64,000 nucleotides of DNA, from positions 10,576-74,575 of the forward strand of contig NZ_VJXQ01000001.1 in the NCBI RefSeq assembly GCF_007655485.1, written 5' to 3'. Position numbers and translations under genes: made by a program. The stretch is from Halobellus captivus (GTDB lineage Archaea; Halobacteriota; Halobacteria; Halobacteriales; Haloferacaceae). This document shows positions 2,003 through 56,643 of the stretch, piece by piece (position 1 is the stretch's first letter; every line of letters begins with the position of its first letter). The notes under the pieces were generated by a model, which saw nothing but the letters and a program-made list of their open reading frames with translations, made no database searches and had not been told where the DNA came from.

Positions 2003-3037
2003 TCAGTTCGAGGGGAGGTAGTCGTTCGTCGCGTACTCGCCGACGTCGAAGCTCTCCTCGACGAAGCCGAGGTCGACGAGTTCGTCGATCGCGAACTGGA
2101 GTCGATCGATGTCGATCGTGATATCCTGGCGGTAGTAGTCGTCGTTCGTGAGGAAGAACCCGTCGACGACGGCCTCCGGAAGCTCGAAGTGTTCGGCGGC
2201 GAGCGAGACGACCTCCGAGCGGTTGTCGTAACAGTAGTCGACGAGTTCGTCGAGGTCTTCGCCCCACGCGGCGATCGCATCGCCCTTCTCGTCGAGGGCG
2301 TCGTTCGAGGCGACGGTGTAGGCGAAGGGATACGCTTCGTCCCAGAGGTCTTGACTCCGGTACACCTCGTTGAAGCCCTCCGAACGGGCCGCGACGGCGA
2401 ACAGCGCCGGAAAGATGCCCGCGTCGAGGCGGCCATCGTTTATCGCCTCGACGAACGTCGGGAACGGGAGTTCGACGAGTTCCGCGTCCTCGCCGAACTC
2501 GAGGTCCTCCTGGCGCATCCCCTTCTCTAAGACGGCGTGGGTACCCGTGCCCTGCGCGTTGACGCCGACGTTCGCCCCCTCCAGATCGGCGATTTCGGTG
2601 ATCCCCGAATCGGCACCGGAGAAGATCGTGAACCCGTACCATTCGGGATGGGCGTCCCAGAAGTCAGTCGAGATCATCGAGATGTTGCCAGGAACGGCCT
2701 CCTGACGGACCGCGGAGGCGTAACTCACCGTCGTCAGAAGCGCCATATCGACCTCCCCGGCGGCCATCGCGTTCAGCGAATCGGGCGTGCTCTCGTTACG
2801 GGTCACGCTGAGTTCGTACTCCGAGCCGAGGTTCGTGAGTTCGTCTTGGAGGTCTTCGATGGCGAACAGCGACCCGAGATTCTCGACTGGCACCGTGAAC
2901 GCCAAGCCGAGTTCCGGTGTGCCGCCGCCAGTGATTCCCGAGATGCTCGAACAACCCGCGAGCCCCGTCAGCCCGACTGTTCCCGCGGCCGCCCCACCCT
3001 TCAAAAACGATCGACGCCGTATGCTATCAAATACCAT
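2003..3037 (-). CDS. Tat-exported substrate-binding lipoprotein (NMT1/SsuA-like)
   Basis: A 344-residue protein from ATG 3037; an in-frame TTG lies one codon upstream. The N-terminus has a twin-arginine motif (RRRSFLKGG) and a lipobox ending LAGCSS, so it should be exported by Tat and lipid-anchored. The mature part resembles periplasmic binding proteins of the NMT1/SsuA/TAXI group: FTVPVENLGSLFAIEDL, AAGEVDMALLTTVSYASAV and GVNAQGTGTHAVLEKG. No permease or ATPase gene adjoins it, so it is an orphan here. A TATA box about 26 bp upstream fits a leaderless transcript. The ligand is unknown; the NMT1 versus TRAP-TAXI assignment needs a profile search. Confidence 0.8.
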   Translation of the reverse strand: MVFDSIRRRSFLKGGAAAGTVGLTGLAGCSSISGITGGGTPELGLAFTVPVENLGSLFAIEDLQDELTNLGSEYELSVTRNESTPDSLNAMAAGEVDMALLTTVSYASAVRQEAVPGNISMISTDFWDAHPEWYGFTIFSGADSGITEIADLEGANVGVNAQGTGTHAVLEKGMRQEDLEFGEDAELVELPFPTFVEAINDGRLDAGIFPALFAVAARSEGFNEVYRSQDLWDEAYPFAYTVASNDALDEKGDAIAAWGEDLDELVDYCYDNRSEVVSLAAEHFELPEAVVDGFFLTNDDYYRQDITIDIDRLQFAIDELVDLGFVEESFDVGEYATNDYLPSN

Positions 3038-3060
3038 CAATAAACAGGATATATTTGAGG

Positions 3061-3070
3061 GTATATAAAT
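3061..3070 (-). promoter_or_regulatory. TATA box of the orphan binding-protein gene
   Basis: Read on the minus strand this is ATTTATATAC, an archaeal TATA element centred about 28 bp before the ATG at 3037. That places the transcription start at or next to the start codon, as in the leaderless mRNAs common in haloarchaea. Confidence 0.55.
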
Positions 3071-3180
3071 TCACCTCCCGTTCGAGCGGTTGAATGTCGA
3101 TCCGCCGGAAAAACGATCGAATGATCGAGGCCTTGAAAAAAGGTACTGAGGGCGCTATCTCTGCGGACGGTATCGCTCGG

Positions 3181-10326: not shown

Positions 10327-11292
10327 ATGCAGGCAACTATCGTAGAGGCGGTCAACGACGCACTGCACGAGGAGATGGATCGGGACGACCGCGTCGTCGT
10401 CTTCGGCGAGGACGTCGCCGAGAGCGGCGGGGTCTTCCGCGCGACCGACGAGCTCCTCGAGGAGTTCGGGAGCGAGCGCGTCGTCGATACCCCGCTCTCC
10501 GAAATCGCGATCGTCGGCGGCGCGACCGGAATGGCGATGTACGGCTACCGGCCGGTCGCGGAGATCCAGTTCTCGGGCTTTCTGCCCCCGGCGTTTGACC
10601 AGCTCGTCACGAACGCGAGTCGGATCCGCTGGCGCACTCGCGGCGAACTGACCGCGCCGATGGTCGTGCGGATGCCCTACGGGGCGGGCGTCCGGGCGCT
10701 GGAACATCACTCCGAGAGTTTGGAGGGGGCGTACGGCCACCTTCCCGGACTTCAGGTCGTCGTCCCGAGCACGCCTGCGGACACGAAGGGTCTGCTCACG
10801 GCGGCGATCCGCGACCCGGATCCGGTGCTGTTTATGGAGCCGAAGCGGATCTACCGCTCGATCAGAGAAGAAGTCCCCGAGGGCGAATACGAGGTCCCGA
10901 TCGGCGAGGCCGCCGTCCGCCGCGAGGGCGAGGACCTCACGGTCGTCGCCTGGGGCGCGATGATGCCGCCGACGCTCGATGCGGTCGACGACGGCGACGT
11001 CGACGCCGAGGTGATCGACCTGCGGACGATCTCGCCGCTCGACACCGAGACAGTCGTCGAGTCGGTGAAAAAGACCGGGCGCTGCGTCGTCGTCCACGAG
11101 GGGCCGCGAACCCTGGGTGTCGGCAGCGAGATCGTCGCCCGCATCAACGACGAGGCGCTGATGTATCTCGAATCACCGATCGAGCGCGTGACCGGGTTCG
11201 ACACGCCGGTCCCGCTGCTGTCGATGGAAGACTTCTACTTCCCCCACCCGCCGCGGATCCTCGACGGCATCGAAGCGGCGCTCGCGGACTGA
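10327..11292 (+). CDS. pdhB: 2-oxoacid dehydrogenase E1 component, beta subunit
   Basis: A 321-residue protein starting at ATG 10327 (MQATIVEAVNDALHEEM). The open frame continues upstream to 10099 inside the alpha gene, but homology begins here. Signatures are VFGEDVAESGGVFRATDEL, VDTPLSEIAIVGGATGMAMYG, the EIQFSGF segment and the C-terminal transketolase domain LRTISPLDTETVVESVKKTGR with VVHEGPRTLGVGSEI. It contributes half of the ThDP site at the E1 interface. The 2-bp gap to pdhA indicates tight coupling; the 229-bp gap to E2 is unusual for this cluster and holds a tandem repeat. Confidence 0.94.
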   Translation: MQATIVEAVNDALHEEMDRDDRVVVFGEDVAESGGVFRATDELLEEFGSERVVDTPLSEIAIVGGATGMAMYGYRPVAEIQFSGFLPPAFDQLVTNASRIRWRTRGELTAPMVVRMPYGAGVRALEHHSESLEGAYGHLPGLQVVVPSTPADTKGLLTAAIRDPDPVLFMEPKRIYRSIREEVPEGEYEVPIGEAAVRREGEDLTVVAWGAMMPPTLDAVDDGDVDAEVIDLRTISPLDTETVVESVKKTGRCVVVHEGPRTLGVGSEIVARINDEALMYLESPIERVTGFDTPVPLLSMEDFYFPHPPRILDGIEAALAD

Positions 11293-11320
11293 CTCGCTCT
11301 TCGTTTCCGTGACCCGTCGC

Positions 11321-11420
11321 CCCGTTTTGACGTCTGTCGCCCCGTTTTGACGTCATTCGCCCCGTTTTGACGTCTGTCGTCCCGTTCGGACGTCGGTCGA
11401 CCCGTTCCGATCGACTGCCG
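11321..11420 (+). repeat. Tandem repeat, 20-bp period, five copies
   Basis: Units begin at 11321, 11341, 11361, 11381 and 11401. The consensus starts CCCGTTTTGACGTC followed by tGTCGc. The first three units are nearly identical; the last two drift to CCCGTTCGGA and CCCGTTCCGA. The array lies between the E1beta and E2 genes, within what should be one operon, and has no open frame of interest. There are no spacers, so it is not a CRISPR. Confidence 0.9.
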
Positions 11421-11521
11421 GTCTGTGTTTTTCGACTTCCAACACGAACTGACTGCTGACTGATTGTTTCGCGCGAGACGCGCAGGGAAATACTGAAAGG
11501 GTTGTGCGTCGACCGACCGGT

Positions 11522-13141
11522 ATGGTAGAACGAACGTTCGAGTTGCCGGACCTCGGCGAGGGGATCGCGGAGGGCGAACTCGTCTCGTGGCTCGTCGAAG
11601 AGGGAGAGTCGGTCGTCGAAGATCAGGTCATCGCGGAAGTCGAGACCGACAAAGCGCTCGTAGAGATTCCCAGCCCCCAGGAGGGAACCATCGCGAAGCT
11701 TCACTACGACGAGGGCGCGATCGTCCCCGTCGACGAGGTCATCGTGACGTTCGACGTCGCCGACGACGGGGCGGCAGGCGAACCCGCCGCGTCGACTCCC
11801 GAAGACGAGTCAGCCGCCGCATCCGACACGGACGACGCGTCCACGGCGGCCGACCCCGGGGAGTCGGCTGCGGATTCGACGGCGGACGCCGATTCGGGCG
11901 CTGCGGCCGGAGAAGGCGAGGCGGCCGTCCCGTCGGGCCGCGTGTTCGCGCCGCCGAGCACTAGGAAGCTCGCGCGCGAACTGGGCGTCGACATCGGCGC
12001 AGTCGAGGGAACCGGCCCCGGTGGTCGCGTGACCGACGCCGACGTCGAGGCGCACGCGGGCGGGGTGACAGAAGGAGAGCCGGACGCGGCGGAGTCACCC
12101 GCAGGTGGATCGGATGCGACCGCCACCGCGGCGACGGCGACGACCGCAGTCGAGAACGGCACTGCCGCGCGCGATCGCACGCTCGCGATGCCCGCGACGC
12201 GGCGACTCGCCGAGGAACTCGGCGTCGACCTCGACGCGGTCCCCGCCAGCGAGGAGCGCGAGGGCGAACCGTTCGTGACGCCCGAGGACGTTCAGCGGTT
12301 CGCCGAGGGCGGCGCTGCCGCCGCGGAAACGGCCTCGGAAGTCGACGCGTCGGCCGAACCCGCCTCTACTTCTGCGTCTGCGGATTCGACTGGCGGCGAA
12401 GCCAGCGAGGCAACTGCTGCTGGCGAAGGCGACCTGGCGGATCGCCCCGGCGAGCGCGTCCCCTACCGGGGCGTCCGGCGGACGATCGGCGAGCAGATGG
12501 CGCAGTCGAAGTACACTGCGCCGCACGTCTCGCATCACGACGAGTTCGACGCGACCGAACTGGTGGAGTTGCGGAGAGAGCTCGCCGAAATTGCGGAGGA
12601 GGAGGGCGTGAAACTCACCTACCTCCCGCTCGTCGTGAAAGCTGTCACGACGGCGCTGGAGGAGTTCCCGTATCTCAACTCCAGTCTCGACGAGGAGAAC
12701 GAGGAGATCGTCCTCCACGACGAGTACAACATCGGTATCGCGGTCGCGACCGACGCGGGGCTGATGGTCCCGGTTGTGAAAAACGCCGATCAGAAGGGGC
12801 TCAAACAGCTCGCGGACGAGATTCAGGATCTCGCCGACCGCGCGCGAAATCGGAAAATCAAGCCCGAGGAGATGCAGGGCGGCACGTTCACGATCACGAA
12901 CATCGGCGTGATCGGCGGCGAGTTCTCCTCGCCGATCATCAACCACCCCGAGGCGGCCATCTTCGCGATGGGACCGATCAAGGAGCGCCCGTGGGTCGTC
13001 GACAGCGAGGTCCTGGCTCGAAAGACGATGCGCTTTTCGATGTCGGTGGATCACCGCCTCGTCGACGGTGCCGACGCCGCGCAGTTCTCCAACCGCGTGA
13101 AGGAGTTGCTCGTCGAGCCCTCGCGGCTGCTGCTGGAGTAA
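11522..13141 (+). CDS. pdhC: 2-oxoacid dehydrogenase E2 (dihydrolipoyl acyltransferase) with two subunit-binding domains
   Basis: The 539-residue protein starts at ATG 11522 (MVERTFELPDLGEGIAEGE). Order: lipoyl domain at about 1-80 with the lipoylated Lys in ETDKALVEIP; a long Ala/Asp/Ser linker; a first peripheral subunit-binding domain (APPSTRKLARELGVDIG, GTGPGGRVTDADV, about 143-180); a second linker; a second such domain (MPATRRLAEELGVDLDAV, VTPEDVQRF, about 222-262); then the catalytic domain from about 310 with VPYRGVRRTIGEQM and the active-site SVDHRLVDGADAAQF. Two binding domains are more than the usual single one. The protein forms the multimeric core to which E1 and E3 attach. Confidence 0.93.
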   Translation: MVERTFELPDLGEGIAEGELVSWLVEEGESVVEDQVIAEVETDKALVEIPSPQEGTIAKLHYDEGAIVPVDEVIVTFDVADDGAAGEPAASTPEDESAAASDTDDASTAADPGESAADSTADADSGAAAGEGEAAVPSGRVFAPPSTRKLARELGVDIGAVEGTGPGGRVTDADVEAHAGGVTEGEPDAAESPAGGSDATATAATATTAVENGTAARDRTLAMPATRRLAEELGVDLDAVPASEEREGEPFVTPEDVQRFAEGGAAAAETASEVDASAEPASTSASADSTGGEASEATAAGEGDLADRPGERVPYRGVRRTIGEQMAQSKYTAPHVSHHDEFDATELVELRRELAEIAEEEGVKLTYLPLVVKAVTTALEEFPYLNSSLDEENEEIVLHDEYNIGIAVATDAGLMVPVVKNADQKGLKQLADEIQDLADRARNRKIKPEEMQGGTFTITNIGVIGGEFSSPIINHPEAAIFAMGPIKERPWVVDSEVLARKTMRFSMSVDHRLVDGADAAQFSNRVKELLVEPSRLLLE

Positions 13142-48774: not shown

Positions 48775-49104
48775 ATGAGTCTCGACGACCTCTCTGACGA
48801 CGTGGAGTCCGCCTACAGCGACTTCAACGACGAACAGTCCGTCTCGCTCGACCGCGAGACTCGACACGAACTCGCGATGCTCTCGGCGGCGTTCGGCACC
48901 GACGACACCGACGAACTGCTTCGACGCGCCGTGCACCTGCTGTTTCAGACGACCGTCGACCGCGGCACGCTGGACTTCCACCTCCGACAGGGCTACGACG
49001 TCACCTACGACGAGTACCTTTACGCCACGTCGAATAATACTTACAACGATCAAAACGCTGGGAACCTACCGGGCGACGACGGACCACGTCGGTATCAATT
49101 CTAA
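48775..49104 (+). CDS. Conserved haloarchaeal small protein whose 3' end is supplied by an integrated element
   Basis: The present 109-residue protein starts at ATG 48775. Residues 1-82 are host sequence (SLDRETRHELAMLSAAFGTDDTDELLRRAVHLLFQ, then DEYL). From the 13-bp repeat at 49007 onward the sequence belongs to the element and gives a new tail ending GDDGPRRYQF. The displaced native tail, ending QRDDERRYQM, lies at 56631-56722 in the same frame; rejoining it would give 107 residues. The two tails share the DDxxRRYQ ending, so the element seems to preserve function. The helical part resembles small DNA-binding or regulatory proteins, but I do not recognise the family. Divergent from mutY. 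Confidence 0.8.
   Translation: MSLDDLSDDVESAYSDFNDEQSVSLDRETRHELAMLSAAFGTDDTDELLRRAVHLLFQTTVDRGTLDFHLRQGYDVTYDEYLYATSNNTYNDQNAGNLPGDDGPRRYQF
49007..49019 (+). repeat. attL core, 13-bp direct repeat
   Basis: ACGACGAGTACCT, identical to 56631-56643. It encodes the last shared residues DEYL of the target gene. Confidence 0.88.
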
Positions 49105-49114
49105 CTCCTCAAGC

Positions 49115-49221
49115 GTAACAGGAGTAACGGGTCTTTGCCTTCCATCAATTGAGTGTATATCGTGATTAGTATTTTCTAAAACTTAGCTGATGTACGTGAA
49201 AAACCTGTTACACCCGTTACT
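49115..49221. repeat. Scrambled inverted repeats next to attL
   Basis: The left side has GTAACAGG (49115-49122) followed by AGTAACGGGT (49123-49132). The right side has CCTGTTAC (49204-49211) followed by ACCCGTTACT (49212-49221). Each module pairs with its reverse complement, but the pairs are crossed rather than nested. Such repeats could be arm-type binding sites for the integrase. The gap 49105-49336 holds no gene. Confidence 0.6.
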
Positions 49222-49261
49222 CACGCAAATATTGAGTGATAACCGTCCTGCAGTCACACCT

Positions 49262-49304
49262 CTTAACCAACATTGAAAGAACAGACGCATTATCGTTGGT
49301 TAAG
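49262..49304. repeat. Palindrome copy 1 (CTTAACCAAC / GTTGGTTAAG)
   Basis: Perfect 10-bp arms flank a 23-bp centre that includes ATTG and CAGACG. The palindrome lies about 30 bp downstream of the lipoprotein gene's stop. A second, slightly longer copy occurs at 50171-50215 on the gene's other side. Confidence 0.85.
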
Positions 49305-49336
49305 GTAGGAGCTAGTGGATTGAATCGGTCTATCTT

Positions 49337-50095
49337 TTAGAAACTGGTATGGCTAATTTGAGCAACTCCATACTCAGCAGAGGTACTAGTTTCTTCGACC
49401 ACTTCCCCGTTTTCGAGGATTTGGATAATCAATGTATCCGAACTAGCATCCTGCTTCTGAGCATTTGCTGAAATAATGTCCGGGCTTCCATCGATCTCTA
49501 TCGTTTGGGATCCAGAACCGTCTACAGATCGGGATGAGCCACCAGTTGATATACTACCTTGCCATTCTCCGCTGTATTCAATTCTCACAGAGAACGAAGA
49601 ACTAGAACCACCGCTATCTCCGCCACTACTAACATCATCTTCAGATGTTACCTGAGCCAGTCCGTATTCTGAGGACGTACTTTCCTCAGCAATCACTTCA
49701 CCGCCTTGGAGTATCTGGACCATTAGCTCCCTACTGCTATCGTCCTGCTTTTGCGCGTTCGCCGAGACAATAAACGGATCACCGTCTATATCAAAAGTCC
49801 TCGTTCCAGAGCCATCGACAGACCGTGTTGATCCCTCACTTCCAATAGCACCGGACCATTCCCCCTGATAGGTTATTCGAACTTGGTAGCTGGAGCCACT
49901 AGCTTCTGTGGGCTCTTGCGTGGCCGTCTCTGTTGGTGTTTCCGTTGATGTCTTCGTCGGGGTAGATGTATCAGTTGGTTCTTCAGTCTGTGCGTTGGTT
50001 TGTGAATCGCCTGTATCCGTTTCTGTATCCCCACTACAGCCAGCCAAGGCGAAACTGGTACCAATTCCAAGGAGTACCTTACGGCGTTTGACCAT
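49337..50095 (-). CDS. Lipoprotein with duplicated MmpS-like beta domain
   Basis: The 252-residue protein has N-terminus MVKRRKVLLGIGTSFALAGCSG with a lipobox, then a Thr/Glu/Pro-rich spacer (about 25-68). Two copies of an 80-residue domain follow (about 70-150 and 168-248). They share VRIxYxGEWxGxI, RSVDGSG, IDGxPxIxSANAQKQD and STSxEYGxAQ. The repeats have diverged only moderately, suggesting internal duplication. The fold pattern recalls MmpS-type accessory domains, but that is a resemblance only. The gene is bracketed by two palindromes and may be an independent cargo cassette of the element. Confidence 0.82.
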   Translation of the reverse strand: MVKRRKVLLGIGTSFALAGCSGDTETDTGDSQTNAQTEEPTDTSTPTKTSTETPTETATQEPTEASGSSYQVRITYQGEWSGAIGSEGSTRSVDGSGTRTFDIDGDPFIVSANAQKQDDSSRELMVQILQGGEVIAEESTSSEYGLAQVTSEDDVSSGGDSGGSSSSFSVRIEYSGEWQGSISTGGSSRSVDGSGSQTIEIDGSPDIISANAQKQDASSDTLIIQILENGEVVEETSTSAEYGVAQISHTSF

Positions 50096-50170
50096 AATTG
50101 AAAATATAGGTCCACTTACAAAAATGGTTGTGACCTATAGCGTGAATTACAACTTTTCTCAGCCTCAAAT

Positions 50171-50215
50171 CTTAACCAACATTGGGGGGTCCAGACGGCG
50201 TCGATGTTGGTTAAG
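50171..50215. repeat. Palindrome copy 2 (CTTAACCAACAT / ATGTTGGTTAAG)
   Basis: Perfect 12-bp arms with a centre that shares CTTAACCAACATTG and CAGACG with copy 1. It contains the TAA stop of the 69-residue gene at 50211 and lies upstream of the lipoprotein gene. Confidence 0.88.
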
Positions 50216-50420
50216 GTTCCTCCGGTTCCTCAAGATCGAGCGGCGGACAGTAATATATCTCCCCGGTATCTTGCCGTCGCTTGAGGTGTCGCTCTTTGTC
50301 GACTATTTCCCACTCATACGATAAGAGCAAAACCAAATGCGCTCTTGGGTACTCTTCGACTGTTTTTCCCTCTAAATCTTCGAGTTGCTGTTCTATCTCG
50401 CGTTTACTCTTCCGTGGCAT
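50211..50420 (-). CDS. RKSKREIE-tag small protein D
   Basis: A 69-residue protein starting ATG 50420, MPRKSKREIEQQLEDLEGK, then a tail (AHLVLLLSYEWEIVDKERHLKRRQ) unrelated to the tails of its neighbours. The start lies 17 bp inside the preceding gene. Its stop is embedded in palindrome copy 2. No function is recognised; the tag is predicted to be a basic-then-amphipathic helix. Confidence 0.72.
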   Translation of the reverse strand: MPRKSKREIEQQLEDLEGKTVEEYPRAHLVLLLSYEWEIVDKERHLKRRQDTGEIYYCPPLDLEEPEEP

Positions 50421-50586
50421 TATCGGGCCTCAGTCCTTCGACCCACGCTTGTTTGAGAGCTTCCTCCGGTGGGTCCGGATAGTCGTCTAAAATAAACTGT
50501 TCAATGATCCCCACGTCGTCGGCTATCTCGCCGTCGTCCAACTCTTCAATTGTCGATTCAATCTCCCGCTTTGATTTGCGTGGCAT
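50404..50586 (-). CDS. RKSKREIE-tag small protein C
   Basis: A 60-residue protein starting ATG 50586, MPRKSKREIESTIEELDDG, followed by an acidic tail (IIEQFILDDYPDPPEEALKQAW). It begins 2 bp after the stop of protein B. Its TAA stop is formed by the nucleotides encoding the Ser-Lys of the next protein's tag. Function not recognised. Confidence 0.72.
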   Translation of the reverse strand: MPRKSKREIESTIEELDDGEIADDVGIIEQFILDDYPDPPEEALKQAWVEGLRPDNATEE

Positions 50587-50588
50587 AA

Positions 50589-50786
50589 TTATAGGTCCAG
50601 CTTCGCCCGCGCCTCAGCCGACAAGTACCGTTCCGGGTCGGACAATACGGCCTGCTCACCGGGCGTTAACGGTCCACCATACACATTTTTCAAATCAGCC
50701 CATAGGAAAGCCCGAACGGACCGCTTGTCGTCTGTATCCAGATTGTCTAAGGCTGTTTCGATCTCCCGTCTACTCTTACGGGTCAA
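50589..50786 (-). CDS. RKSKREIE-tag small protein B
   Basis: A 65-residue protein starting at TTG 50786 (MTRKSRREIETALDNLD). The tail LWADLKNVYGGPLTPGEQAVL SDPERYLSAEARAKLDL-like region is predicted helical. An upstream ATG gives a longer frame, but the TTG start is chosen because it places the tag at the N-terminus as in the neighbours and overlaps the previous stop by 11 bp. Function not recognised. Confidence 0.65.
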   Translation of the reverse strand: MTRKSRREIETALDNLDTDDKRSVRAFLWADLKNVYGGPLTPGEQAVLSDPERYLSAEARAKLDL

Positions 50787-50925
50787 TCTCAACCACCTCC
50801 CGCTTGTGGGTATTGCCGTCAGGATCTCGCCGTACAATCGCCACCTGTGTTGATGGTTCATCGGCCGGGTTCGGTTCTATCTCTTCAAGCTCTTGCTTGA
50901 TCTCACGCTTGCTCTTACGAGTCAA
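50776..50925 (-). CDS. RKSKREIE-tag small protein A
   Basis: A 49-residue protein starting at TTG 50925 (MTRKSKREIKQELEEIEPN), tail STQVAIVRRDPDGNTHKREV with a beta-hairpin look. It overlaps the 86-residue gene upstream by 11 bp: the same GACTCGTAAGAG stretch encodes the upstream Asp-Ser-stop and this protein's Thr-Arg-Lys. Too short to be found by a 60-residue cutoff, but the shared tag and overlap support it. Function not recognised. Confidence 0.65.
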   Translation of the reverse strand: MTRKSKREIKQELEEIEPNPADEPSTQVAIVRRDPDGNTHKREVVEIDP

Positions 50926-51175
50926 TGTCTCTGTGCTCCTCAAGCCGATCTAATCGTTCGGACAACTCTTCGAGGTCTTTGTCGGCCAGATACTTTCGTC
51001 GGGTCGACAACGCGGAGATAATCACACGCAAGTATTTCAGTCGGATTCGTTCCTTCTCCGGCGAGCGGATTCGACCCTCGCCAAGTGATTTGTACCTCGC
51101 CTGTTCGATTACGTCGCTTAACTCCGCTAAGGCGTCGTCGCGTTGAGATTGTATTTTATCGGATTCGTCTGTCAT
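50915..51175 (-). CDS. Helical 86-residue element protein
   Basis: The protein starts MTDESDKIQSQRDDALAEL and is nearly all predicted helix, with a basic middle (YKSLGEGRIRSPEKERIRLKYLRVI) and a C-terminal coiled-coil-like segment (LADKDLEELSERLDRLEEH). It heads the overlapping chain that leads into the RKSKREIE genes. The composition suits a small nucleic-acid-binding or packaging accessory protein; the family is not recognised. The 188-bp gap upstream (51176-51363) shows no convincing gene and should hold its promoter. Confidence 0.75.
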   Translation of the reverse strand: MTDESDKIQSQRDDALAELSDVIEQARYKSLGEGRIRSPEKERIRLKYLRVIISALSTRRKYLADKDLEELSERLDRLEEHRDIDS

Positions 51176-51363
51176 AGGTATTTACTCGGCTGATTTTTGC
51201 TGATTGCCGTCTTACAACGTGTTGCTTAGATCCCGTTTACACTCTGCAGTTGATTCCCGGTCAAAACCGCCACCGGGGTACTGAAAAAATAGGAATCTGC
51301 GGCTGGAAAAGGACCGATACAATGCCTGATTCCCTCGCCTTTCGGGTCATCGGCCGCTACAAA

Positions 51364-51543
51364 TCAGGTACAGCCTTCGCGCGCTTCTTGTCCGATCACT
51401 CGGATCAACGCCGGAACGTCGATCATATGAATCCCACCAATAACGACAGCCGCCACGGTGCCATTTGCGGATCCAGTAAAGGCCATCAACGCCACCAGAA
51501 CGGTCGCTATGGTGTTTTCATTGATTAGTTGAGAGACGTTCAT
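51364..51543 (-). CDS. 59-residue small membrane protein
   Basis: The start ATG at 51543 overlaps the primase-helicase stop as ATGA. The sequence begins MNVSQLINENTIATVLVAL, with one hydrophobic segment of about 28 residues (TIATVLVALMAFTG to VVIGGIHM), then a short polar tail ending EAREGCT. The overlap implies translation coupled to the primase-helicase. Function unknown; small membrane proteins of plasmids and viruses often act in host interaction, but nothing here shows that. Confidence 0.65.
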   Translation of the reverse strand: MNVSQLINENTIATVLVALMAFTGSANGTVAAVVIGGIHMIDVPALIRVIGQEAREGCT

Positions 51544-54071
51544 TGATACGCTCCTAAGCCGCTCTCACGGGATTCACTCTCTTCGTCGCTCGAACCCGAC
51601 TGTGGCTCTGGTGCGTCGTCGGTAAGGGTAATTCCAACGTAGCACCGCGTTCGGGGGATTCCGTCAACTGTCCTTTGCCGTTGAACCACGTCGCCGCGCT
51701 TCGTTACTTCTTGGGTGAATTTAGACTTGGATTCACATTCAACGCCGGTTTGACGGGCGAAGGCCACGTATGAATCATACGCGCCAAGTGTGTTGTCTGT
51801 CGACCGTTCCGGGATGGAAGCTCCCTCTTCGCTTTCAGTATAGCGTTCAATGAATTGCTCAATTGAGTTGCCATACCGCTCCCACTTCCGGCGATTGTCA
51901 AAGGGTAGTGGTTCGTTGGTAAATTCACCCTGAGCCATCAAGCGCCTGTAGCCTTCGATTGCCCAGTTGAGGATCCCGGCCGACTCTTCGAGGAGTGTTT
52001 GATCCAAGTCGTTGATTTGCTCATTCTTTGGAACCGCCTCGGGGAAAATCACCGTGAGCCATCGGTTCCAAAACGCCTCGTCGTCTACGTCGCGGTTCGG
52101 AACCCGATTTGCCGCGAAGATATGCTTTGCCGACGGGGTAAATTGGAATACCGGCTTTCGCTTTCGTTCGGCGTCCATACTATCCCCAGCGATTAGCTCT
52201 TTCACCTTCCCCGTGTTTTCGATCAATTCACTTCCCAAGTCGCTCCGGGTATTGATGGCCGTATTCACCAGTCGCGCCGGTCCCCAGCGTTGGTTTGCAA
52301 GATACTGAATTGACGTCGACGCCGTACTTGGGGAATCTTCGCCACCGAACAAGCCTTCAACCACGTCGATAAAGACGGATTTACCGGCGTCTGTCGGTCC
52401 TAACAGCATTAACGCCTTCTTATGCGGGAGACTCCAATGGTGTAAGCAATACCCGACAAACTCCTGCAGGAGCGGAATATCCGCGGCTTCAACTACGTCG
52501 CCAAGAAATTCCTTCCACCGCGGACACTCGGCTTCAGGGTCATACTCGGCTTCGATCCGCCACCGGACTTTGTCGGCCGGTTCAATCTCTCTGCAGTCGC
52601 CCGTCTGTAGGTTTACAAGCCCGCTTTTCGTGGCGACGGTTCCAATGGGTCCGCCACCGAACGCCTCCTCTTCGGCGCGTGTGCGGGCCTTGAGTTGGTC
52701 TACAACCTCATTCCGGAGCTGTTTACGATAGTGCTCTTGGAATTCGGAATCAAGCCATTGTCGGATATACTCCTCGCCGTGGCTATGCCATAATCCGTCG
52801 TCGTCGCACCAGAACCATTCTTGTCGTTTGGGGAGCCACGCAACCCGTTCTATTGGAATCTCACGTAAGGCCACGTTCTTCAACTCCTGTAGGCTAAGAT
52901 CCGCGTATGGATCGGCCGGTGTTCTGGTTTCAATCTCCCACCCGTCAGGATTCTCCAAAAACGCCGCGCCACCTGCAGTTTCGTTAATTGCTAAGGTTGC
53001 CTTCGTTGGGAGTTGGTCCGGATCCTTGAAGAGGTCGACAAGTTCGGTGCTCTCGTACTCTTTGGTATCTTGCACCCGAACGATTTGGTTTTGCGTATCG
53101 AACCAATTTGGAGCTAAGGCGTTTTGTAGGGGTGTTTTCGCCGTGCTACTGTGGGGGTTAGTGCGCGAAGATTCACCTTTAGACGGCGTTGGTACGGTCC
53201 AGCCGCCTTCTTTCGCTTTGTGGATTAGGGTGCCAAGAGTAACGCCCGAACCGTCGGACGCTTCGGACCATATCCAGTCTATGCTTTGGGAAGCCTGTTT
53301 GTCGTATTTACTCCCTCGCCGGGACCACTCCTCGAAGAGCTTTCGCCCGGCCGACCCACTATCAAAGTCGTGGATAGCGAAACCGATCTTAATCCATTCC
53401 GTGTGTGAGACGTCCGGATCAACATAACTTAGAGCCTCTTCAATATCCGACTCAGTTAGATACTCTTCGTGCTCCTCGCCCGCGCGTCGTTGGGATTGAC
53501 TCTCGCCAAGATCCGGCGTCCGGCCGTGGATCGCTTTGTATGCTTTGAAGAGCCACGGTGCGGGATTAACGTCCGTAATTGAATTGCCGCTTAGGTCGTG
53601 GGTTTGGCCGGTAAACGCACAAAATTTGTTCTGCAGTACATCAACGCCTTCGTGCTCTCCAAGTTGGCCATCGGTCCACCAGTCGGGAATCTTCGCGTTT
53701 TCAACGAAGATATGCAATCCCGTACCTGAGGCGGAATGTTCGATATACGTTCCCTCAAAGTGGTTTAGGTCCGGCACCCAGTCTTTGGGGGTTCTATCAT
53801 CGGTAATCCCACCGTCAACGTCAATACAAGCGTATTCACCGGCTTCATAGTCGTCGTTTTCACCAGCCATTACGCGGCCGATCCCCCAACTCTCGCGGGG
53901 TTGTGCGGCGTCTCTCGCCTCCTCGAAGGTATGCCAGTCGTTCGGGTCGGACCAACTGATTCCGTAAAATTCGCCGTCCCAATGCGGTCGTCTTGGTGTG
54001 TCTGCAGAGTTATCCCACAAGAGCCATTGGTCACCCTGAAGCTCAGTCGGGATCGCGTCGTAGTTGGTCAT
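51540..54071 (-). CDS. Primase-helicase (P4/D5-like) replication protein
   Basis: The 843-residue protein has an N-terminal primase-polymerase-like region about 1-170 (CIDVDGGITDDRTPKDWVPD, IEHSASGTGLHIFVE), a PriCT-type helical domain about 205-290 (VSHTEWIKIGFAIHDFDSG), a D5-N-like domain about 380-560, and an SF3 helicase about 560-760 with Walker A LLGPTDAGKSVFIDVVEG and the following ASTSIQYLANQRWGPARLVN. The C-terminus looks like a winged DNA-binding region (YDSYVAFARQTGVECESKSKF). It should unwind and prime element DNA and is the likely replication initiator. It overlaps its neighbours on both sides by ATGA. Confidence 0.92.
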   Translation of the reverse strand: MTNYDAIPTELQGDQWLLWDNSADTPRRPHWDGEFYGISWSDPNDWHTFEEARDAAQPRESWGIGRVMAGENDDYEAGEYACIDVDGGITDDRTPKDWVPDLNHFEGTYIEHSASGTGLHIFVENAKIPDWWTDGQLGEHEGVDVLQNKFCAFTGQTHDLSGNSITDVNPAPWLFKAYKAIHGRTPDLGESQSQRRAGEEHEEYLTESDIEEALSYVDPDVSHTEWIKIGFAIHDFDSGSAGRKLFEEWSRRGSKYDKQASQSIDWIWSEASDGSGVTLGTLIHKAKEGGWTVPTPSKGESSRTNPHSSTAKTPLQNALAPNWFDTQNQIVRVQDTKEYESTELVDLFKDPDQLPTKATLAINETAGGAAFLENPDGWEIETRTPADPYADLSLQELKNVALREIPIERVAWLPKRQEWFWCDDDGLWHSHGEEYIRQWLDSEFQEHYRKQLRNEVVDQLKARTRAEEEAFGGGPIGTVATKSGLVNLQTGDCREIEPADKVRWRIEAEYDPEAECPRWKEFLGDVVEAADIPLLQEFVGYCLHHWSLPHKKALMLLGPTDAGKSVFIDVVEGLFGGEDSPSTASTSIQYLANQRWGPARLVNTAINTRSDLGSELIENTGKVKELIAGDSMDAERKRKPVFQFTPSAKHIFAANRVPNRDVDDEAFWNRWLTVIFPEAVPKNEQINDLDQTLLEESAGILNWAIEGYRRLMAQGEFTNEPLPFDNRRKWERYGNSIEQFIERYTESEEGASIPERSTDNTLGAYDSYVAFARQTGVECESKSKFTQEVTKRGDVVQRQRTVDGIPRTRCYVGITLTDDAPEPQSGSSDEESESRESGLGAYQ

Positions 54072-54220
54072 TCACACCACCCTGCGGCCTTCGCGTGGAC
54101 CTTACACACGGCCGTTCCGTTGACGTCGGTAAACGCCGGATCGTAGCACTTACCGCAAAATCTTTGAGACTCCCTGACGTAGTCTGTTCTGACGGAAGCC
54201 CCATTCCCGTCACTTCTCAC
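54068..54220 (-). CDS. Small zinc-finger protein
   Basis: A 50-residue protein from GTG 54220; a TTG at 54310 in the same frame would make 80 residues but would run over the preceding gene. It has FCGKC, then CKVH and a final Cys (AGWCE), a plausible single zinc site. Its stop overlaps the primase-helicase start (ATGA) and its start overlaps the 45-residue gene upstream by 11 bp, so it fits the chain of coupled replication genes. Confidence 0.6.
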   Translation of the reverse strand: MRSDGNGASVRTDYVRESQRFCGKCYDPAFTDVNGTAVCKVHAKAAGWCE

Positions 54221-54347
54221 CTTCCGCCACCTCCAAGAGAGCTTTAGCCAACTCACCCGCTGGAAGGTCCGTTTCGGTAAGGGCTTCGAGGTCGTCGCGT
54301 TTGTTTGCAATCTTTTCAGTCGCCGTTTTTGCTTTCTGAATACTCAT
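54210..54347 (-). CDS. 45-residue helical protein
   Basis: From ATG 54347, it begins MSIQKAKTATEKIANKRDD and ends LAKALLEVAEGEK; almost wholly helical and charged. It is too short for the usual ORF cutoff, but both ends overlap adjacent coding frames in the same way as the rest of this operon. Function unknown. Confidence 0.55.
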   Translation of the reverse strand: MSIQKAKTATEKIANKRDDLEALTETDLPAGELAKALLEVAEGEK

Positions 54348-54424
54348 TTATAGCAAGAGTTAGAATCACCGCCTGCAGAGGGTCGGTCCTCTGCATAGTT
54401 TGCAACGCCCGGAATCGGTGGCAT
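54344..54424 (-). CDS. Possible 26-residue leader peptide
   Basis: ATG 54424 follows AGGA by about 5 bp, a plausible Shine-Dalgarno. The frame (MPPIPGVANYAEDRPSAGG, ending SCYK) stops in an ATGA overlap with the next gene. Such coupling is the main evidence, so this remains tentative. Confidence 0.35.
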   Translation of the reverse strand: MPPIPGVANYAEDRPSAGGDSNSCYK

Positions 54425-54474
54425 ACGGTTCCTAAGGCCATTCCCACCGACGGGCGTTCTGTTCAATACAACCG

Positions 54475-54606
54475 TTAGGGTTCATCCAAAACGTCGTCTG
54501 GAATGTGCTCCTCAAGCGCCTCTTGATACGTCTTTTCTGGACCGGCAAGCTGCCAGAGTTTGTTTCGGAAGTCTTTGCTAACTGTTATCGTAGTGTTATC
54601 ACTCAT
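54475..54606 (-). CDS. Ribbon-helix-helix (CopG-like) protein
   Basis: The 43-residue protein begins MSDNTTITVSKDFRNKLWQL, the strand-helix of an RHH fold, and continues GPEKTYQEALEEHI for the second helix. RHH proteins dimerize to bind operators, so this is a candidate copy-number or operon repressor for the replication genes downstream, or the antitoxin-like part of a module without visible toxin. Not reached by a 60-residue cutoff. The gene-free region upstream contains repeats that could be its operators. Confidence 0.65.
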   Translation of the reverse strand: MSDNTTITVSKDFRNKLWQLAGPEKTYQEALEEHIPDDVLDEP

Positions 54607-54676
54607 AGTGTGGTGTTAGGGTCAATTAGTACGTGGTTCCGGTATTTCGGTTCCCAGCGATCACTATAGGAACGAA

Positions 54677-54698
54677 GAGAAACTGTCGCCAGTTTCTC
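54677..54698. repeat. Perfect hairpin GAGAAACTG-TCGC-CAGTTTCTC
   Basis: Nine-bp arms and a four-base loop, about 70 bp upstream of the ribbon-helix-helix gene; operator or structured RNA element. Confidence 0.7.
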
Positions 54699-54714
54699 AC
54701 CCGACGCTGTCACC

Positions 54715-54736
54715 GATACCACTACGATACCACTAC
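54715..54736 (+). repeat. 11-bp direct tandem repeat, two copies
   Basis: GATACCACTAC occurs perfectly twice in tandem. The spacing of one helical turn resembles protein-binding iterons. Confidence 0.7.
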
Positions 54737-54853
54737 CTTGTCGGCTTATCACACGGTCCGGGAACCAATCCCGTTACCTATAACCGATATTGGGGAGGTG
54801 GCCCAGCGCCCGGCCGTTTGACGAAGGGGCGGACCTCATCCCGCCACCACGAA

Positions 54854-54952
54854 CACAAGTTGAGATTTGCCTGAATTTCAAATGACAGCAACCGAGGCTG
54901 TCATATCTTAAAAAGGGGCTTCCGATTGGGTCAAATCTCAATTTGCCTTGTG
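54854..54952. repeat. Nested inverted repeats
   Basis: The outer arms are CACAAG plus TTGAGATTTG (54854-54869) and CAAATCTCAA plus CTTGTG (54932-54952). Inside lies GACAGC...GCTGTC (54884-54902). It could fold into a cruciform or form part of a replication origin. Confidence 0.65.
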
Positions 54953-55164
54953 TATAGACCTAACAGCCGGGTCAGTCCTCACATAGCAGACTTTCCCCCC
55001 GACCGCCTCTATTGGTGTATTATTCTGTGGTAATATAAATATACCGAACGATTCGGTTTTTCTAACCCTTGTATCACAATATTATCCCACAAAAATGCGG
55101 TTTAGAAACGAATACCTCAACCTATTCGGCGTCGGGTTCTCAATTCGGTAGTTCGGAAAAATAG

Positions 55165-55199
55165 GCGCTAATCTTCAAGCGATTTTTCTCAAGTAGCGC
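55165..55199 (-). terminator. Possible integrase terminator
   Basis: On the minus strand GCGCTA and TAGCGC form a stem just past the integrase stop and are followed by CTATTTTTCC. The T-run supports termination; the 23-base loop is long. Confidence 0.45.
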
Positions 55200-55202
55200 G
55201 AC

Positions 55203-56570
55203 TTAACTCAACTCTTCAAGAATCTCGCGTTTCAAATCGCCCTTTAGTTCGTCTATCAGCTCACCTTTCAATTCAGGGTCGTCTCTCACCGCCTCAAGCA
55301 CCTCATCAACGGTTTGGACCTGTTCGACTTGTTCCATATCCTCGGCTTCTTGGTACGACTGTCGCACCGCTTCGTCGGCTTGTTCCATCGCTTCTTTCGC
55401 GTCGGGCGTAAATTCAAGCCCGCACCACGGACAGAGCTTCGCCGTCGCCGGGGGATTGTCACCGCACCGGGGGCATACCTGCGGCGTTAGTTCGCTCTCC
55501 GGTTCTTCAACTTCCAAATCGAACGCTTTTCGAGCTTCGCGGATATGGTCGCTATCTTTCAAGTGAGCATAGGTCGATTCCATAACCCGACTCTCTGGTG
55601 CGTGGCCGAGTTGGTGCTTGATAGCGCTCTCCGGAACGCCGCGCCGGAGCGAAATAGTCACAAAGTTATGCCGAAGCGCGTGAGGATTCAGGGGCTTGTC
55701 AATATCCGTCCGCTCTTTCATACGTCTGAGTGTTTCGTAAACGCTTGATTCACCCATTTGCGTCCGCGCCGTCTCTTCGTCGCTAAGGTTTCGGTCCTCT
55801 TTGAACGGTCCACCGTTGGCAAACTGCGGGAGCGGACAAAACACGTACGCCTCAGGATCGTCCGCGTTCGGATGGCCGGTTTGGAGCCATTGACGGATTG
55901 AAGCCGCAGAAAGGAGTAGATCCCGCCACTTTCCGTTTTCGTCGGCACCCTTCAAGCCCTCCTCTTCGTCGTTCAGCCGGAATTTCTCTTCCTCAAGCTT
56001 GAGATGTTTGATTTTGAGGGTCCGCGTAGCGCTCGCCCGTTGGCCGGTATAGATTAGAAAGTCGAAGAGCGCTAAATCCCGGTTGTTTCGCGCCACGGAC
56101 CGAAGCTCTTGGACCTCCTCGCGGGTGAGCATATCATCGGGATCGACGCCCGTATTTTCTTGTGTTGGAACCGGAATCTCCTCTTCGTCAATCCCCGCGT
56201 CGGTGTGGACCCTGTAGAATTTTCGTAAGGCCAGAGAATACAACCGGAGGGTTCCGTTCGTAAGCCCGTCGTCTTTGACGCTGTCGTGCTCGCCGTCTTT
56301 GTATTGCTGTAGTAGTTCCTTCAATTCCAATTCGGAGGTATTCAGTAGATCAACATCTTTAGCGAAGCGTCGACACTTTTTAACGTAATTCTCAAGCGTA
56401 CTGGGAGCATTTGTCTGTTCCCCCTCCGGCACACTCACCAGCATTTGATCTTCGTCGTACGCCTTTGCCATATGTAGAATCGCCTCGGCGTTCGACGGAT
56501 TCACAAACCCGTCTTTCTCCTCTTCGACTCTCTTCAATTCACGGTCGAATTGTTCCGTCTGTTTTCCCAT
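55203..56570 (-). CDS. Tyrosine recombinase (integrase) with C-terminal zinc ribbon
   Basis: The 455-residue protein starts at ATG 56570 (MGKQTEQFDREL). A SAM-like N-terminal DNA-binding domain (about 20-140) is followed by the catalytic domain with the first Arg in TGQRASATRTLKI, the HxxR box HALRHNF, the LGHA box and the nucleophile Tyr in VMESTYAHL. A zinc ribbon follows at about 368-395 (CPRCGD and CPWCGLEF), then an acidic coiled tail. It sits 60 bp from the right att repeat, the usual arrangement for the enzyme that catalysed the element's insertion. Confidence 0.95.
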   Translation of the reverse strand: MGKQTEQFDRELKRVEEEKDGFVNPSNAEAILHMAKAYDEDQMLVSVPEGEQTNAPSTLENYVKKCRRFAKDVDLLNTSELELKELLQQYKDGEHDSVKDDGLTNGTLRLYSLALRKFYRVHTDAGIDEEEIPVPTQENTGVDPDDMLTREEVQELRSVARNNRDLALFDFLIYTGQRASATRTLKIKHLKLEEEKFRLNDEEEGLKGADENGKWRDLLLSAASIRQWLQTGHPNADDPEAYVFCPLPQFANGGPFKEDRNLSDEETARTQMGESSVYETLRRMKERTDIDKPLNPHALRHNFVTISLRRGVPESAIKHQLGHAPESRVMESTYAHLKDSDHIREARKAFDLEVEEPESELTPQVCPRCGDNPPATAKLCPWCGLEFTPDAKEAMEQADEAVRQSYQEAEDMEQVEQVQTVDEVLEAVRDDPELKGELIDELKGDLKREILEELS

Positions 56571-56630
56571 ACAACACCCAACAAACCGCACCCACAAAAT
56601 AGTAAGTATTCTTCGTATCTACAGGAGACA

Positions 56631-56643
56631 ACGACGAGTACCT
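56631..56643 (+). repeat. attR core, 13-bp direct repeat
   Basis: ACGACGAGTACCT, identical to 49007-49019. On the host side the sequence continues in frame into the displaced gene end. Confidence 0.88.

Follow-up and report, generated by a model that had tools for sequence, protein, structure and literature searches.

The window analysed here, a 64,000-nt stretch of Halobellus captivus DNA, contains four consecutive small genes that begin alike and end differently. We asked what a row of such miniproteins, each consisting of a common N-terminal tag and a tail of its own, might do for the DNA that carries it.

The tagged array and its element

All four minus-strand ORFs at 50211-50925 read [M/L]-[P/T]-RKS(K/R)REI at their start and then diverge, just as the preliminary description had it. 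The degenerate tag pattern matched four times in the window and not once in 100 shuffles. In pairwise comparison the four tags are identical at 13-17 of 21 nucleotides, against 6-7 of 7 residues, and the synonymous codons differ. Because the tag codons vary synonymously, the conservation lies at the protein level, and the tag is not a simple repeat; the array is neither a chance occurrence nor a DNA repeat. No Rfam RNA was found in the array region. The features of the locus are as follows.

49007..56643, no strand: integrated element of 7.6 kb, located within the 3' part of a conserved gene, with the 13-bp core ACGACGAGTACCT at both ends
49007..49019, plus strand: attL core, 13 bp, identical to the attR core
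56631..56643, plus strand: attR core, 13 bp, identical to the attL core
55203..56597, minus strand: tyrosine integrase (Pfam Phage_integrase, E 9e-20)
51540..54071, minus strand: D5/P4-type primase-helicase (PriCT_2, D5_N; PHROG DNA primase, E 9e-72)
50915..51175, minus strand: c2 family, TerS-like protein; homologues directly upstream of TerL in 10 loci; helical hairpin in the AF2 model; C-terminal helix DKDLEELSERLDRLEE
50776..50925, minus strand: tagged miniprotein 1, TTG start; its short tail shows a weak resemblance to TerS tail type HR (3.5 bits)
50589..50786, minus strand: tagged miniprotein 2, TTG start; tail family WADLKxxYGGxLTxxE, with tail homologues in L023, L027 and L092
50404..50586, minus strand: tagged miniprotein 3, ATG start; the tail has a homologue in L023 and a similar counterpart in L024
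50211..50420, minus strand: tagged miniprotein 4, ATG start; tail family LLSYEWExVDxERxxxRxxxTGE, with tail homologues in L023, L024, L068, L079/L166 and L092

The junctions within the array have gaps of -17, +2 and -17 nt. That the genes overlap or abut, and that tag codons also provide the stop of the preceding gene, can be seen directly. The example previously given for this, GACTCGTAAG, does hold a stop within the tag, but the gene that stops there is not itself tagged; it is the untagged gene at 50915-51175, and this gene emerges as the key partner. Most other arrays overlap by a simple 4 nt, so the stop-in-tag geometry of the window is a local variant of close coupling. Copies of CTTAACCAACATTG, in direct and inverted orientation (49251-49275, 50160-50184 and 50204-50218), flank a lipoprotein-like gene (49337-50095) at the array end; this is a possible cassette-exchange or terminator site.

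The array forms the distal part of the 7.6-kb element, whose remaining content is the integrase, the primase and small ORFs. Its insertion site is uninterrupted in seven congeners (L260-L266), and GC content drops across it from about 67% to 47-55%. We recognised no TerL, capsid, portal or other virion gene in the element, and the host genome (G000) gave no match to TerL. Head and terminase PHROGs were likewise absent among the matches listed (the first 25 of 30 families) for proteins of the window and of plasmids L079, L081 and L082. Several traits of PICI-like satellites are thus present: an integrase with an att site, a primase, and small size with no capsid, portal or TerL gene; a candidate for the TerS or packaging-redirection gene of such satellites is c2, which is TerS-like by synteny and not by fold. 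We therefore describe the element as satellite-like and apparently devoid of a packaging motor of its own, with putative packaging by, and dependence on, a helper.

Distribution of the arrays and their upstream genes

A search of other haloarchaea with a strict tag pattern, as the preliminary description had proposed, was positive in 10 of 392 genomes, whereas the reversed control pattern gave no hits; one of the 18 strict matches (L005) was a coincidence inside an unrelated membrane protein. The tag is thus not confined to one genome, and a profile search found many more tandem arrays, among them arrays on complete plasmids of Halomarina (L031), Halorientalis litorea (L082; 8.9 kb), Natronococcus occultus (L079), Haladaptatus salinisoli (L081) and Halalkalicoccus jeotgali (L078). 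The non-redundant set holds 101 tagged ORFs in 46 clusters, with tagged TerLs and proteins of about 220 residues counted in, and 24 of these clusters have 2-6 copies. Some two dozen haloarchaeal plasmids and integrated elements have multi-copy arrays, and these almost always come straight after a c2 or c7 gene. Neighbouring tagged genes abut or overlap in 47 of 55 pairs, and in 31 of them the overlap is exactly 4 nt. This recurrence in other haloarchaeal mobile elements bears out the earlier reading of a modular arrangement, with a fixed start and variable tails. The family also appears to be as undescribed as was thought: among 58 miniproteins there were no PHROG matches at E<=0.01 and only three single Pfam matches, all at chance level. 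Tag-only searches of viral contigs, and tblastn searches in phages, returned nothing, because the tag is too short for confirmation.

Two further observations concern the carriers. A contig of a metagenome-assembled genome titled Thermoplasmata (L094, PUNK01000029.1) encodes c2 and a four-gene tagged array of haloarchaeal type, and is possibly mis-binned. Tape-measure genes are present in elements with no recognised capsid genes (L027 10839-14186, L028 5020-7743, L065 5814-7604, L068 10280-13207 and L132 1208-3868), and their products might redirect helper tails.

The upstream gene of the window array belongs to the c2 family, found in 43 of the 392 genomes. In 10 loci TerL comes immediately after c2, and in L069 the two are separated by one tagged gene. 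A tag follows within 330 nt downstream of 46 of 64 c2/c7 genes, against 100 of 5566 control ORFs; the 64 were partly collected via the tag, and in the part collected via c2 alone (L132-L166) about half or more are also followed by a tag. The AF2 model of c2 is a two-helix hairpin of moderate confidence (pLDDT 77). It has no N-terminal HTH DNA-binding domain, the tested members have no Pfam or PHROG match, and Foldseek searches of PDB and BFVD returned nothing significant: the best PDB hit had E 0.4, and a T4-type TerS appeared no higher than rank 22.

The c7 family consists of HTH proteins (HTH_11, weak; phrog_15023, E 3e-35). A c7 gene stands directly before TerL in circularised HSTV-1, across the record ends, and 1.5-3 kb upstream of TerL in Hardycor1, HCTV-2, HHTV-2 and phiCh1. 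All five c7 proteins of array elements carry a c2-like C-terminal helix (5.9-16.3 bits), against none of nine virus c7 proteins and a maximum of 4.6 in 280 shuffles; apart from this helix, c7 is a different protein from c2. A scan for viral relatives with the c7 alignment confirmed none. We regard both families as small-terminase-like, an assignment that for c2 is made by synteny and not by fold.

Around c2 we also noted other arrangements. In most of L135-L140, L145 and L160, an Orc1/Cdc6-like ATPase gene is found close to c2 and a tagged TerL, and no portal or capsid gene was recognised in the vicinity; these loci are possibly another class of satellites or relics. A second tagged family of about 215-240 residues (KRRLExDLE...DLSPDERLxLxLEA) follows c2 in the position of TerL, beside Orc1/Cdc6, in L141-L144, L146 and L155-L158. 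Viral contig L101 encodes c2 with a weakly tagged gene (2493-3079) and an integrase, and farther along (10909-12536) it has a TerS-like gene together with a phiCh1-like TerL; it could be a satellite beside a provirus.

Matches of the tag and of the tails

The TerLs that follow c2 themselves start with the tag (for example, MTNPTKREIERLLEELK and MTDPTKREIERELEALK). An N-terminal HMM built only from miniproteins scored at least 8 bits in 8 of 12 c2-associated TerLs and in none of 56 virus TerLs with an ordinary TerS (Fisher 7e-8); two of the 12 scored under 3 bits. The TerLs in this comparison are 42-44% identical elsewhere, despite the contrast in the tag. It is thus well supported by comparison that the tag corresponds to the N-terminal segment of the TerL class paired with c2, and its AF2 model is a helix of moderate confidence (pLDDT 76). 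Two related elements, L132 and L027, illustrate the exchange. Common to both are a primase, a CxxC protein and c2, followed by a tape-measure gene (26%, E 2e-37) and a gene for 106-131 residues (42% identical). Between c2 and these last two genes, L132 has a TerL and L027 has six tagged miniproteins. The array here stands exactly in the place of TerL. Readings of the tag as a capsid-targeting signal, as part of a toxin-antitoxin system or as a simple repeat were rejected on account of its presence on TerL and its synonymous variation.

The suggestion that the tag targets a common partner is supported, but not that this is host polymerase, ribosome or DNA: the tag matches a TerL N-terminus and follows TerS-like genes. 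The TerS C-terminus is bound by the first residues of TerL in P22 and itself binds TerL in lambda (PMC9611059). From this contact geometry the counterpart of the tag is expected to be the C-terminal helix of c2, which we strongly infer to be its socket. The c2-like helix that closes the c7 proteins of array elements, but not those of viruses, speaks for this.

The tails find their resemblances on the other side of the same contact. The virus TerS proteins collected from upstream of TerL have a small number of C-terminal tail types, and some of these recur on unrelated TerS bodies (L190, L192-L194). In these four viral contigs the tail KREVEGSMEHTGEGGGPMEVTVRRERYDPDE is found on three different TerS bodies, before a near-identical TerL; the bodies apparently swap while the motor-binding tail stays. 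With HMMs of virus TerS C-terminal tails at a threshold of at least 4 bits, types VV (EVVETPW) and HR (VSITHHRV) were each found in 6 of 80 miniprotein tails, against 2 of 710 in the background (P=2e-5), a value to be read as a guide only, as these tests were chosen after the resemblance had been noticed and the sequences are interrelated. In the reverse search, 4 of 16 tail families (2, 3, 8 and 15) had TerS C-termini as their best viral matches. A third motif, VTA[DE]FVTY, was taken from tails in L025 and L026 in a search prompted by the TerS of L327. Among 2.9 million viral contigs it matched nine times; seven matches lie within 14-17 residues of the C-terminus of TerS-like proteins, with TerL beginning right after in five of the seven, and the remaining two of the nine are chance.

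Most tail families, including those of the window's miniproteins 2-4, had no match among the TerS tails compared. The tails of miniproteins 2-4 fall into families that are also conserved in other genera. Searched as HMMs, the window tail families gave no convincing viral match, the TerS tails of phiCh1-type and HHTV-2-type viruses did not resemble the window tails by eye, and tblastn with four consensus tails retrieved no more than two plasmids, both familiar as array carriers, and no phage. We conclude that some miniprotein tails, with support for 4 of 16 families, resemble the C-terminal tails through which halovirus TerS proteins are expected to bind TerL. The earlier proposal that the tails are inhibitors of host defence or DNA-binding factors is not borne out by the tails that can be identified, which resemble TerS C-terminal tails.

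A proposed adaptor between element and helper

To account for both ends of these proteins, we propose that the array encodes small bipartite adaptors of a satellite-like element that has no packaging motor of its own. Their shared N-terminal helix, the plug, would be the segment that opens TerLs paired with a c2-type TerS, as the comparison supports, and would bind the element's own TerS-like protein, the product of the gene just before the array, at its C-terminal helix. The tails, at least in the four families named, would imitate the C-terminal tails of various halovirus TerS proteins, with which these are expected to grip TerL. Each miniprotein might then link the element's TerS, bound to the DNA of the element, with the TerL of one particular helper, and an array with varied tails would widen the helper range. 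That the miniproteins are plug-and-tail adaptors from element TerS to helper TerL, with binding at both ends predicted from sequence, is a reading that we favour with modest confidence. Somewhat more tentatively, we put its chances at a little short of even that haloarchaeal satellites have a split, modular small terminase, in which a DNA-bound TerS body with a universal socket is served by a row of interchangeable plug-and-tail cassettes, each for a different helper motor.

Should the proteins instead be pure interference peptides, plug and tail would compete at the TerS-TerL interface of an infecting virus and block packaging, with no bridging. Tails that mimic TerS C-termini could indeed occupy TerL, and PICI Rpp proteins act in both ways, blocking the packaging of the helper and redirecting it (PMC6739421). 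The tag, however, matches c2-paired TerLs, and among the TerLs of the viruses with imitated TerS tails it matches none (0 of 56); it so points at the element's own TerS, and a pure decoy would need neither a plug nor a co-encoded TerS. We consider pure inhibition the main rival, but an unlikely one. An adaptor is likelier in that the plug resembles the protein with which the element's TerS is paired, not the motors with imitated TerS tails; one protein could do both, as PICI Rpp does.

A broader role for c2 and c7 would make the tag a general docking signal to a hub that acts outside packaging, for instance in replication or partition, with the tails as varied effectors, including anti-defence ones. 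The occurrence of c2 beside Orc1/Cdc6 genes and before the tagged proteins of about 220 residues would suit such a hub, as would the many tails with no TerS resemblance; set against these are the position of c2 directly upstream of TerL in 10 loci, that of c7 near TerL in halovirus genomes, and the fact that the only identifiable tails are TerS tails. On balance we think it improbable. Decay is a still poorer fit, and one to which we give very little credence: on this view a TerL gene was lost, its N-terminal part was left behind in several copies, and these became joined to random sequence downstream. A tag derived from TerL or common to it, and an array in the place of TerL in L027, are what decay would leave, but the tail families are conserved across genera, the genes overlap tightly and have no stops, the tag is kept despite synonymous codon change, and no TerL sequence follows it.

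The preferred adaptor reading has partial parallels in known systems. At the P22 and lambda interfaces the contact is between the TerL N-terminus and the TerS C-terminus (PMC9611059), and the tag corresponds to the former site and the imitated tails to the latter; the miniproteins differ in joining halves of two different interfaces in separate proteins of about 60 residues, several per element. Their proposed action resembles that of PICI Rpp and SaPI TerS, in which a small satellite-encoded protein redirects the helper terminase to satellite DNA (PMC6739421). Rpp, however, mimics the TerS DNA-binding domain and joins the helper TerS, whereas the miniproteins have no such domain, consist of plug and tail and come in arrays; no sequence relation to Rpp or SaPI TerS was found. 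The C-terminal tails VVETPW, VSITHHRV and VTADFVTY of the TerS of BJ1, Humcor1 and Hardycor1-like haloviruses are common to some miniproteins, but the viral tail is of one piece with a DNA-binding TerS body, and here it is on a separate protein.

Phage T4 internal proteins also place a single short N-terminal tag, in their case capsid-targeting, on varied small proteins. The miniprotein tag differs in that it also opens TerL, which is not virion cargo, and it is accompanied by neither a prohead protease site nor capsid genes.

We found no description of haloarchaeal satellites of this kind in the literature searched, whose coverage was partial, so that novelty is unproven; a multi-helper adaptor kit, if real, would have no described counterpart. 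If the proposal holds, tailed archaeal viruses would have PICI-like satellites, and the use of several helpers by one satellite would be explained. TerS would then be modular, its body, socket and motor-binding tail exchanging independently, and the poorly understood contact between TerS and TerL would become testable with peptides of about 20 residues.
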